Position numbers and translations under genes: made by a program
The notes under the pieces: model-generated
The model's database searches: none
Told to the model about the DNA's origin: nothing
The model's input: only the letters and a program-made list of their open reading frames with translations
NCBI GenBank assembly: GCA_938045815.1
Contig: CALIBI010000043.1
Location: forward strand, 1-34,681
Direction of reading: 5' to 3'
Source: an uncultured Sulfolobales archaeon
GTDB lineage: Archaea; Thermoproteota; Thermoprotei_A; Sulfolobales; NBVN01
DNA: 34,681 nt
Shown here: piece after piece, positions 20,491 to 26,968 of the stretch
Position numbering within the stretch: the stretch's first letter is position 1
How the letters are laid out: every line of letters begins with the position of its first letter

Positions 20491-21261
20491 CTAGACGTGA
20501 TAGTCATGTATGTGTACGTGCTTCTCATGCATAGTTATTGCTTCCCCATAAATTTCTTTGAGTAAGTCTTCTTTAAGGATATTCTCTGGATTACCGAAGA
20601 ACCACTTACCATTACCGAGTAGTAGCAGGTTGTCTGTATGTTGCAGTAGTAATGTAGGGTCGTGAGAACTCATTATTACTGTAGTTGACTTACTTTTAAG
20701 TAACTTAATTATTGTTGAGGCGAGTGAGATCCTGCCTGTAGGATCGACTGAAGAGAAAGGCTCGTCTAAAATGAGTATCTTAGGTTCGTGAACCAAGGCT
20801 CTAGCTATTAAGACTCTCTGCCTCTCACCTCCTGAGAGTTTCCAGAAACTCTTGTTCTTAATACTTCTGTCAAGCTCTACTAGGTCTAAGACTTCCTCAA
20901 CTCTCTTCCTAATATCATGGTTAGAGAGTATTCTAGGCCACTTACTCCTGTAGAGGAGATAGGACAACTCAATCAATTCTCCAACACTGACTGGGTAAGG
21001 GAAATAAGAAGGCGTGAATACTTGTGGCACGTACCCAACATACCTACCAATACGTTCCGGAGAACCCGTGACGTCCTCCTCATATAAAAAGACCTTACCT
21101 CTCAAAGGCTTAAGAATACCTATGAGAGTCTTAATTAATGTAGTTTTACCAGAACCGTTCGCTCCTATGATCTGAGTTAAGGTGTTTTCAGGAAATGAAG
21201 CACTTATTCCTTCAATGATTGGCTTCACGTAACCTATATCTAAGTCAAGCACTCTCAGCAA
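20491..21261 (-). CDS. Metal ABC transporter ATP-binding protein (ZnuC/MntB type)
   Basis: About 256 residues. ABC signature elements: Walker A GANGSGKTT, Q-loop YVPQ, LSGGERQR signature, Walker B ILILDEP, and the SSHDP switch His. The sequence is of the metal-chelate (zinc/manganese/nickel) subgroup. The C-terminus is His-rich (MHEKHVHIHDYHV), a likely metal-sensing or metal-binding tail in the cytoplasm. The frame extends to GTG 21315, but that lies at a TGTGCACA element. A strong GAGGAGG site (within 21264-21274) lies just before TTG 21261, which I take as the start. It is divergent from the binding-protein and permease genes of the same transporter. It follows the ROK gene's 126-bp promoter gap, which shows nothing else. 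Confidence 0.88.
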   Translation of the reverse strand: MLRVLDLDIGYVKPIIEGISASFPENTLTQIIGANGSGKTTLIKTLIGILKPLRGKVFLYEEDVTGSPERIGRYVGYVPQVFTPSYFPYPVSVGELIELSYLLYRSKWPRILSNHDIRKRVEEVLDLVELDRSIKNKSFWKLSGGERQRVLIARALVHEPKILILDEPFSSVDPTGRISLASTIIKLLKSKSTTVIMSSHDPTLLLQHTDNLLLLGNGKWFFGNPENILKEDLLKEIYGEAITMHEKHVHIHDYHV

Positions 21262-21263
21262 TT

Positions 21264-21274
21264 CTTCCTCCTCT
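21264..21274 (-). promoter_or_regulatory. Ribosome-binding site fixing the ABC ATPase start
   Basis: The minus strand reads AGAGGAGGAAG immediately before TTG 21261. It is the strongest site in the region and argues against the upstream GTG at 21315. Confidence 0.6.
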
Positions 21275-21294
21275 ATGCACACTCTCTTTGAAGG

Positions 21295-21325
21295 TTTATA
21301 AATGTATGTGCACACTTATTATAAA
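21295..21325. promoter_or_regulatory. Crossed divergent promoters around a TGTGCACA palindrome (metal transporter control region)
   Basis: TTTATAAA at 21295-21302 and TTATAAA at 21319-21325 flank the perfect palindrome TGTGCACA at 21307-21314. With 25-nt TATA-to-start spacing, the left box should drive the plus-strand operon (start near 21323, then AGGTGA and GTG 21336). The right box, read on the minus strand, should drive the ATPase (start near 21296, then GAGGAGG and TTG 21261). The two promoters therefore overlap face to face, and a protein on the palindrome could repress both. A NikR-like regulator is encoded at the end of the plus-strand operon. Confidence 0.5.
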
Positions 21326-21335
21326 GGTGAGAGGA

Positions 21336-22370
21336 GTGACGCTACTGTTTGCTAGTGTAAGGTATGTGGGCTTACTTCTAATCATAACTAATTTCCTAGT
21401 ACCCGTGATTAGCTACTCTAGCAACTCTGGATTAACGATTATTGTTACATTCCCTAATCTCGTTGATGATGTAAGCTTAATTAAGTGTGATTTAGATAGG
21501 GTATATTCTCTGCTGCCTTCCTCAGTAGACCCGCATGACTACTCTTTAACACCAACAGACGTTAAGTTGCTGGAGCAAGCAGACTTAATTATCTCTACAG
21601 CACACACGCATTTCGAACTACGTATTAGTGAGTTAAGAGATCAGGGCGTCATTAAAGCAGTGATTCTAGAAATACCTAAAGTGAGTGGAATCAAGCTACT
21701 GAAGAACCCGAGTACTGGGTTGCTTAACCTACACATGCCCATATATGACCCAAGCAATTATTTAGTGTTTCTCAGGAACTTAACAGATACGCTCAAGCAT
21801 CTTAACCCGGCTTGTGCGGGAGTTTATGAATTCAAGTATGAGTCAGTAAAGAATAGGATTAACGAGTTGGTGGGTGGTGTTGAGCAACTGAATCTGAAGG
21901 GGGTTGGCGTAAATCCATTAGTTCAGTATGCTGTCTCATGGCTTGGCATAAACCTAACTAGACTCTTAATACCTGAAGAAGATGTTAGTCCTACCTCCGG
22001 CATGGTTCGCGATATAGAAGATCAAGTCAGGAAGGGTTATGTTGACGTAATAGTTGTTACTACAGAAGAAAGCACTTACGTTAGTTACCTGAAAAGTCTT
22101 GGGTCGCAGTACGGTATCCCAGTACTAGAGGTCCCTCTACCATTTACTGAGGGATCTATATTAAGCAAGCTAGAAAACATTGCTAGTCAGGCAACTAAAA
22201 TCAAGACCTCAACAGTCATAGCTCAGGCAAGTCATGAAGAATACCTTAGGAATATACTCCTACTAACATTGTTAGGTTCTGTTACTTTATCACTCCTGGT
22301 CTGGCTAGTCTTCCATGCTATACGCTCTAGAAAGATTAGCGCCTCATTTAGGGTGAGTAATTATGCGTGA
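21336..22370 (+). CDS. Metal ABC transporter substrate-binding protein (ZnuA-like), membrane-anchored
   Basis: About 344 residues. An N-terminal signal/anchor (VGLLLIITNFLVPVIS) is followed by a cluster A-I (ZnuA/MntC-type) binding domain: DPHDYSLTPTDVKLLEQADLII with the first His ligand, a HTHFE segment, and HMPIYDPSN with the second His ligand. A C-terminal membrane helix (LLLTLLGSVTLSLLVWLVF) is followed by basic residues, so the protein is probably tethered at both ends or by its tail. The third and fourth metal ligands of ZnuA-type proteins are not where expected (VNPLVQYAVSWLGI in place of the His-bearing segment). The start is GTG 21336, with AGGTGA 5 nt upstream. It overlaps the permease gene by 8 nt. 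Confidence 0.82.
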   Translation: MTLLFASVRYVGLLLIITNFLVPVISYSSNSGLTIIVTFPNLVDDVSLIKCDLDRVYSLLPSSVDPHDYSLTPTDVKLLEQADLIISTAHTHFELRISELRDQGVIKAVILEIPKVSGIKLLKNPSTGLLNLHMPIYDPSNYLVFLRNLTDTLKHLNPACAGVYEFKYESVKNRINELVGGVEQLNLKGVGVNPLVQYAVSWLGINLTRLLIPEEDVSPTSGMVRDIEDQVRKGYVDVIVVTTEESTYVSYLKSLGSQYGIPVLEVPLPFTEGSILSKLENIASQATKIKTSTVIAQASHEEYLRNILLLTLLGSVTLSLLVWLVFHAIRSRKISASFRVSNYA

Positions 22371-25110: not shown

Positions 25111-26265
25111 TTATGTGGTTCTCAGTAAGTAAATCATTACCGTGAGTGAACTTAGCTCAGTAATTAATACGTAGGGTATTAGGTAGGTCGGGTTTAGTGT
25201 ATATATTGCTCCAGCTAATACACCCCCCAACATCCAGGCAACACCGTAAATGAGTCCGTAGGTACCGTAAGCGAGAGCTCTCCTGTCAGGCTCTACAAGG
25301 TCCGGTATAGCGGCACGCATGTTTGTCTCGTATATCGACATAATAGCTCCCCAAACAGCAGCAACTAAATACAACGTAGTTCTAGTGTTAGTTAGGAGGA
25401 ATACTGGGATGGTGGAAGCTAGTATAGGTGTAATTACTAATGATTTCAGCCCCATCTTATCGTAGAGATAACCTATGGGGAACGCTACCAGAGCGTCAAC
25501 CCCCATCGCTAAAGCATACATTAAAGAAATCTCGGGGTCACTAACTAACCCACACTCCTTCATATGGTAAGACACTAAGGACCAGGCTAAGTAGCCTGTA
25601 GTCATGAGAGCTAATGAAGCTGAGAAGAGATTGAATTTTCTGCCTAAATTCCAACCTACTACAGTTTTTCTAGGACTAACGCTCTTTACCCTAGGATACG
25701 TCGCGTATGCCGTGAGCAGGAACGCAAGCGATATCGCGGCAGGTATTGCTAAGACAGCGAAAGCTAGTCTGTAATCCTCACTAGACATACTTAAAACAAA
25801 CATAACTAGTAGGGGTCCGGAGAACGCTCCTAATTGATCCATAACCTCGTGGAGTCCGAACCCCTTACCCCTACCCACTCCCTCAATAACTTCTGACAGT
25901 ATTACGTCCCTTACAGGTGTTCTTAAACCCTTCCCTAACCTCTCCACAAAAAATAGTGTTAGAGCTACTTCCCACCTACCAGCTAAAGCTAGAGCTGGGA
26001 CGGCCACCAAGTTGATTACATAACCAACCATAGTTAAGCTCCACAAAACCTTGCTACTCCTTAGCTTATCAGCTAAATACCCGCTGAGAAACCTCATCAA
26101 GTAACCTAGAAACTCCCCGATAGTCACAGCACCAGCTACTAACGCAGTTCCTTCAAGAATCTTCAAGTAAGCACCCGAAACACCTCTAGCACCCTCGTAA
26201 GTCATGTCAGCAAATAATGATACGAGACCTAAGAAAACAAACGTCAAGAGAAGCTTCTTGTTCAG
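25111..26265 (-). CDS. Major facilitator superfamily transporter with probable CTG start
   Basis: About 384 residues with roughly twelve hydrophobic helices and MFS features: a basic loop between helices 2 and 3 (GYLADKLRSSK), VERLGKGLRTPVRD in the helix 4-5 region and a second-half GYLYDKMGLKS loop. The substrate is unknown; the ERLGKGLRTPVRD motif resembles a group of archaeal/bacterial MFS proteins of unsettled specificity. The nominal TTG start (26247) has no ribosome-binding site. GAGGTGAT at 26272-26279 lies 6 nt before an in-frame CTG (26265), which would give a natural basic N-terminus reading NKKLLLTFVFLG after the start. An alternative is a one-base A-run error hiding an ATG at 26273. 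Confidence 0.82.
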   Translation of the reverse strand: MNKKLLLTFVFLGLVSLFADMTYEGARGVSGAYLKILEGTALVAGAVTIGEFLGYLMRFLSGYLADKLRSSKVLWSLTMVGYVINLVAVPALALAGRWEVALTLFFVERLGKGLRTPVRDVILSEVIEGVGRGKGFGLHEVMDQLGAFSGPLLVMFVLSMSSEDYRLAFAVLAIPAAISLAFLLTAYATYPRVKSVSPRKTVVGWNLGRKFNLFSASLALMTTGYLAWSLVSYHMKECGLVSDPEISLMYALAMGVDALVAFPIGYLYDKMGLKSLVITPILASTIPVFLLTNTRTTLYLVAAVWGAIMSIYETNMRAAIPDLVEPDRRALAYGTYGLIYGVAWMLGGVLAGAIYTLNPTYLIPYVLITELSSLTVMIYLLRTT

Positions 26266-26271
26266 GTTTTC

Positions 26272-26310
26272 ATCACCTCACACAGACTATAACATAATAT
26301 AAGCTTTAAA
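26272..26310. promoter_or_regulatory. Divergent promoter and ribosome-binding region, MFS / Cas4-like genes
   Basis: CTTTAAAT (26303-26310) contains palindromic TTTAAA and suits both strands. Predicted start points are near 26281 on minus, just before GAGGTGAT (26279-26272), and near 26331 on plus, at the GTG start of the Cas4-like gene, which would be leaderless. A second box, TTATATTA, lies at 26292-26299 on minus. Confidence 0.45.
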
Positions 26311-26329: not shown

Positions 26330-26968
26330 GTGTTTAGGATGGAAGAGGGGCCTCAGCTAGACCTAATTAACTTACTCTACAGAGTTAGTAAGGAAGAAAG
26401 AGAGAAGCACCCCAGAAAGCCAGGTACCTACTGGGTTACTGACCTCGTAAGATGTGTGCTTAAGAGAGATTATGAACTTAAGTATCCTGAACTAATCGAG
26501 AAAGAAGTCTTCACACCAGTATTCATACTTGGGACGTTAGTTCATAAAGGTTTGCAAGAACTGCTTAGAAGCACTATGGGTGAGGTAGTATTAGCGGAAG
26601 TCGAGGGAAGTCGTGAGGTGATTTTACCTGACGGGAAGAAAGTAATGATTGAGGGGAGAGCTGACATAATCGTTAAAATAAATAATGAAATGATAGGGGT
26701 AGAAATAAAGACTGCCAGGAGTGATTACGACTTACCTAAGCCTCAACACGTAGATCAAGCAAGAATATATAATTGGCTCTTCAACCTCAAACACACTATA
26801 TTAGTGTACGTAACACCGGAAAGAATAACTCAATACCTCGTAAGTAACAAGATTAGCGAGGAAGAAGTTGTTGATAGGATAACGACCAAGAATATACCTA
26901 GGTACGAGTGGGAGTGTAGGCTCTGTAGCTACTCAGTAATGTGTCCTTACAAAATATCGAGTAAGTAG
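26330..26968 (+). CDS. Cas4-like RecB-family Fe-S nuclease (no CRISPR context)
   Basis: About 212 residues of the Cas4/RecB nuclease type. Visible: Cys42 in VRCVLKRDYE, His72 in GTLVHKGLQ (motif I), GRAD with Asp112, EIKT with Glu125 and Lys127 (PD-(D/E)xK core), Gln143 in DQARIYNWL, and the C-terminal Cys196-x2-Cys199-x5-Cys205 that with Cys42 ligates a 4Fe-4S cluster. Cas4 trims prespacers in CRISPR adaptation, but stand-alone archaeal Cas4-like nucleases occur and may act in DNA repair. No cas gene or repeat array is visible in 34.7 kb. Start GTG 26330 (leaderless) or ATG 26339. Confidence 0.85.
   Translation: MFRMEEGPQLDLINLLYRVSKEEREKHPRKPGTYWVTDLVRCVLKRDYELKYPELIEKEVFTPVFILGTLVHKGLQELLRSTMGEVVLAEVEGSREVILPDGKKVMIEGRADIIVKINNEMIGVEIKTARSDYDLPKPQHVDQARIYNWLFNLKHTILVYVTPERITQYLVSNKISEEEVVDRITTKNIPRYEWECRLCSYSVMCPYKISSK

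Follow-up and report, generated by a model that had tools for sequence, protein, structure and literature searches.

Translation from near-cognate start codons is known in all domains of life, with infC of E. coli, for instance, starting at AUU, and ACG starts occur in plant chloroplasts, where they are often restored to AUG by C-to-U editing. A survey across 36 groups of bacteria and archaea (PMC5622118), in which AUU starts were also counted, recorded a change from AUG to CUG in 2 of 61,358 cases, a figure taken from existing annotations, which disfavour near-cognate codons. The archaeal judge of the start codon is the initiation factor aIF1, which discriminates against non-AUG start codons in Sulfolobus solfataricus (PMC6237735). 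Our literature search, which had most subscription papers outside its reach, returned no report of near-cognate starts in crenarchaea.

The window analysed here (34,681 nt) is one entire contig (G000:C43) of a draft genome of 1.52 Mb in 72 contigs, G000, the relatives of which are metagenome-assembled genomes (MAGs) labelled Desulfurococcaceae or Sulfolobales. The same family includes Zestosphaera tikiterensis, and the genus of the window genome stands near Zestosphaera. On the minus strand, the window carries an MFS transporter gene (25111-26265, stop codon included; Pfam MFS_1, E=1e-29) that encodes 384 amino acids when read from a CTG codon at 26265. The gene is flanked downstream by a ribB-like gene and on its other side by a divergent gene for a Cas4/PD-(D/E)XK-like nuclease (26330-26968, plus strand), which scored 54.9 bits against NCBIfam cas4, under the 65-bit cut-off. 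The ortholog of the nuclease gene adjoins the MFS gene in G004 as well, and a search of viral contigs returned no relative. Sequence comparison across the genus leads us to conclude, with high confidence, that the MFS gene is translated from CTG 26265 and that this codon is one of several near-cognate starts in the genus.

Around the start the minus strand reads TGTG TGA GGT GAT GAA AAC CTG AAC AAG AAG CTT CTC TTG ACG, in which an in-frame TGA (26278-26280) sets the upstream limit of the reading frame. The preliminary description had pointed to a full-strength ribosome-binding site six nucleotides ahead of an in-frame CTG, and both the site and the spacing were borne out. The 16S 3' end of the window genome is GGCTGGATCACCTCC, to part of which (ATCACCTCC) the site GAGGTGAT (26272-26279, minus strand) is complementary, so that it constitutes an 8-nt Shine-Dalgarno (SD) sequence without mismatch, followed after 26271-26266 by the CTG (26263-26265, minus strand). 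This codon is one position off ATG and is neither GTG nor TTG. The first canonical codon in the frame, the nominal start TTG (26245-26247, minus strand), was likewise found to lack an SD of at least 4 nt at usable spacing. The word GAGGTGAT occurs five times in the window, where shuffles gave an expectation of 1.19, and SD-like words are enriched, some of them within genes, so that finding this word does not by itself establish a start. Further upstream, CTTATATT (26296-26303, minus strand) was picked out as a candidate TATA box by inspection of the alignment, and the surrounding AAGCTTATATTAT is common to G002 and G005. If CTTATATT is a TATA box, the 5' end of the transcript could fall close to or inside the SD, a point against the CTG start.

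The start site was compared across five species of the genus (the window genome G000, G001, G002, G003 and G004) in protein-aligned orthologs, whose alignments begin at residue 1-3. Identity to the window protein is 93% in G002, the closest relative, over the first 99 matched residues, and 83% in G004. At the column of CTG 26265, G002 has ATG, G001 has GTG and G003 has TTG, all recognised starts, and G004 has ACG. The frame of each species is closed by an upstream stop, with ATG, GTG and TTG absent between that stop and the start column. SD-like sites also precede the column elsewhere, as GCAGGTGGTGAGGA-ATG in G002 and GAGGTGGTAGGGG-ACG in G004. This comparison with related genomes, which had been proposed as a check, supports the natural CTG start that was one of the readings offered at the outset. 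Initiation there would probably be of the ordinary SD-guided kind, with an initiator Met-tRNA tolerating one mismatch as the most likely mechanism. The 8-nt SD helix would position the small ribosomal subunit with CUG in the P site, initiator Met-tRNA would read CUG with a single first-position mismatch and insert methionine, and the strong SD at near-ideal spacing would probably compensate for the weak codon. The protein would then begin M-NKKLLLTFVFLGLVSLF, an ordinary N-terminus ahead of the first membrane helix of the transporter, and output from such a start is expected to be low.

An alternative that we regard as unlikely places the start at TTG 26247, leaving CTG 26265 in an untranslated leader. 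In its favour, archaea normally accept TTG as a start codon, and many coding ORFs of these genomes have no SD-supported canonical start; the comparison across species argues against it. The TTG column reads TTG, TTG, CTG, ACG and GTG over the five species (CTG in G004 and ACG in G001) and is therefore not conserved as a start, and G002 has an ATG with an SD six codons upstream of it. Moreover, among the closest species most changes in the five codons between CTG and TTG are synonymous (two synonymous and no nonsynonymous relative to G004, two and one relative to G002), and basic residues are kept there ahead of the first membrane helix.

Less probable still is an ATG start, with A as the real base at 26265, obscured by a substitution error in the draft assembly or by a minority variant. 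The window genome is indeed a 72-contig draft, and the ATG of its closest relative at the start column is one substitution from CTG. Against this, G004 is equally without ATG, GTG or TTG at that column, and other near-cognate starts are shared by two or three separately assembled genomes, which random errors would not produce.

The preliminary description had also raised a frameshift or a base missing from the assembly. An out-of-frame ATG AAA ACC TGA (26262-26273, minus strand) does lie inside and behind the SD, and one extra A in its A-run would, as had been stated, join it to the gene as MKNLNKKLLL; if CTTATATT is a TATA box, the predicted 5' end of the mRNA could lie near ATG 26273. In the relatives compared there is no coding sequence upstream of the start column: the stops in TGA GGA (G002) and TAG GGG (G004) stand directly before it, so this region is non-coding in both. 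The distance from SD core to start is one base shorter in these two species than in the window, not longer, and the embedded ATG is conserved in neither, G002 having GTG in its place. As, by inspection, only four A after a G make a poor slippery site and the SD overlapping ATG 26273 could not serve that ATG, a start there followed by ribosomal or polymerase slippage, or by an A lost in assembly, is very improbable, and we judge the embedded ATG to arise incidentally where GGTGAT is followed by G. The SD of pyrD, described below, likewise has a comparable out-of-frame ATG behind it.

Near-cognate starts (CTG, ACG, ATA, ATC and ATT) were surveyed in about 2 Mb drawn from three genomes (1.1 Mb of G000, about 0.4 Mb of G002 and about 0.5 Mb of G004) by calling coding ORFs from codon usage and collecting codons upstream of the first ATG, GTG or TTG that were preceded by an SD of 6 nt or more. 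At a spacing of 5-6 nt, a bin examined after candidates had been seen, 20 of 80 codons were near-cognate against 8.7% expected (p=1.3e-5, here and below from a simple binomial model on our own ORF calls), as were 16 of 43 in genes without an SD-supported canonical start (p=3.6e-7). Every bin is reported, and none of the ten others (spacings 3 to 24) held a near-cognate excess. With ortholog families counted once, 15 of 68 remained against 5.9 expected (p=6.4e-4), the signal being carried by about nine families among 1,186, a little under 1%. A raw count of GAGGTGATN{4,6}CTG versus N{13,15}CTG in the window genome gave 6 and 6, without excess; this measure is too blunt because SD-like words occur within genes too, and its outcome implies that such starts are sparse. 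Among ortholog pairs with a strong SD in both species, 4 of 28 columns were near-cognate, too few to test alone. Many apparent pairs of near-cognate and canonical codons were dropped for an ordinary start close by, among them a CTG/ATG pair in a window gene (21219-22370) in which a separate SD-like site accompanies a GTG three codons upstream.

Several genes retain the same near-cognate codon between species. The gene pyrD (dihydroorotate dehydrogenase; DHO_dh, E=2e-49; L188:1018-1938 on the plus strand, also L259 and L260) has an apparent ATC start in all three surveyed species, G000, G002 and G004, behind an SD with a 9-10 nt perfect match (AGGAGGTGAT-5 nt-ATC in G000 and G002, GGAGGTGAT-5 nt-ATC in G004); G001 and G003 have TTG one codon later, and G000 has no canonical codon until 21 codons on, within the domain. 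Candidate starts are likewise CTG in all three species for a RACo-like protein and ATA in 3/3 species for both a DUF498 protein and a 130-aa protein. Two species share ACG in a threonyl-tRNA-synthetase-like (ThrRS-like) gene (G000 and G002; L161:1554-3284, minus strand, and L209 near 15616, plus strand), CTG in a 105-aa protein (G000 and G004), and CTG in a membrane protein (G000 and G002), which has GTG four codons later. In a 101-aa membrane protein one column reads CTG in G002, TTG in G004 and ATG in G000. Single-species cases are a flavin reductase (ACG, G000), endonuclease III (CTG, G002) and an archaellin with an apparent ACG start (G002; L213:8874-9521, minus strand). Starting the archaellin at the next canonical codon would drop part of its hydrophobic N-terminus, and gene finding limited to ATG, GTG and TTG would cut off the signal peptide.

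The ACG of the ThrRS-like gene is itself a threonine codon in the two species, possibly by coincidence. In a third species the gene (G003:C21:11412-13127) has one in-frame TGA.

The excess at one spacing, together with the retention of the same codon between species, suggests that the genus repeatedly makes use of near-cognate starts. These sites resemble the rare near-cognate starts of other bacteria and archaea in that the codon is one base off AUG, stands behind an SD, would be read by initiator tRNA, and occupies a fixed position at which close relatives have AUG, GUG or UUG. They differ from the rarity recorded in PMC5622118 in that several occur in one genus, some of them kept across species and ACG included. 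Such recurrence with conservation between species, in one archaeal genus and extending to ACG, may be new. As in plant chloroplasts, ACG is found where relatives have ATG, but the genus also has CTG, ATA and ATC, which C-to-U editing could not convert to AUG. Nor is the initiation machinery simply one without aIF1: the factor was found in all five genus members searched, so that its loss was ruled out as the cause of near-cognate starts. Neither ARAGORN nor a simple motif search turned up the initiator tRNA in the portions of the genomes that were covered, an uninformative outcome given that coverage and the introns common in archaeal tRNAs.

We lean towards a broader reading, in which the genus regularly uses CTG, ACG, ATA and ATC starts in a little under 1% of its genes, housekeeping genes such as those for dihydroorotate dehydrogenase and the ThrRS-like protein included, behind strong SDs and kept across species, reflecting a loosened or deliberately weak start choice, and in which gene finders limited to ATG, GTG and TTG mis-annotate these genes. 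A single CTG start would amount to a modest annotation correction. If such starts are recurrent and conserved, initiation in this group tolerates codons that standard gene finders ignore, and the database entries for key enzymes and for an archaellin are truncated at the N-terminus. With ATG, GTG or TTG orthologs as controls, the genes would offer a natural test of the extent to which a strong SD can stand in for a good start codon in archaea, and of whether weak starts persist to limit expression or by neutral drift.

Two further genes have unusual starts. A conserved gene of about 185-195 aa, found in two species (L159:14025-14579 and L232:622-1209, both on the plus strand), has no ATG, GTG or TTG for 28 codons and carries AGG or GGG, then TTT, behind a strong SD, none of these being good near-cognates. 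An aminotransferase-like ORF of 421 codons, 90% identical in two species (L124:16373-17635, plus strand, and L239, minus strand), has a conserved ACG at the expected start, which lacks an SD, immediately follows TTTTATAG and is possibly a leaderless near-cognate start.
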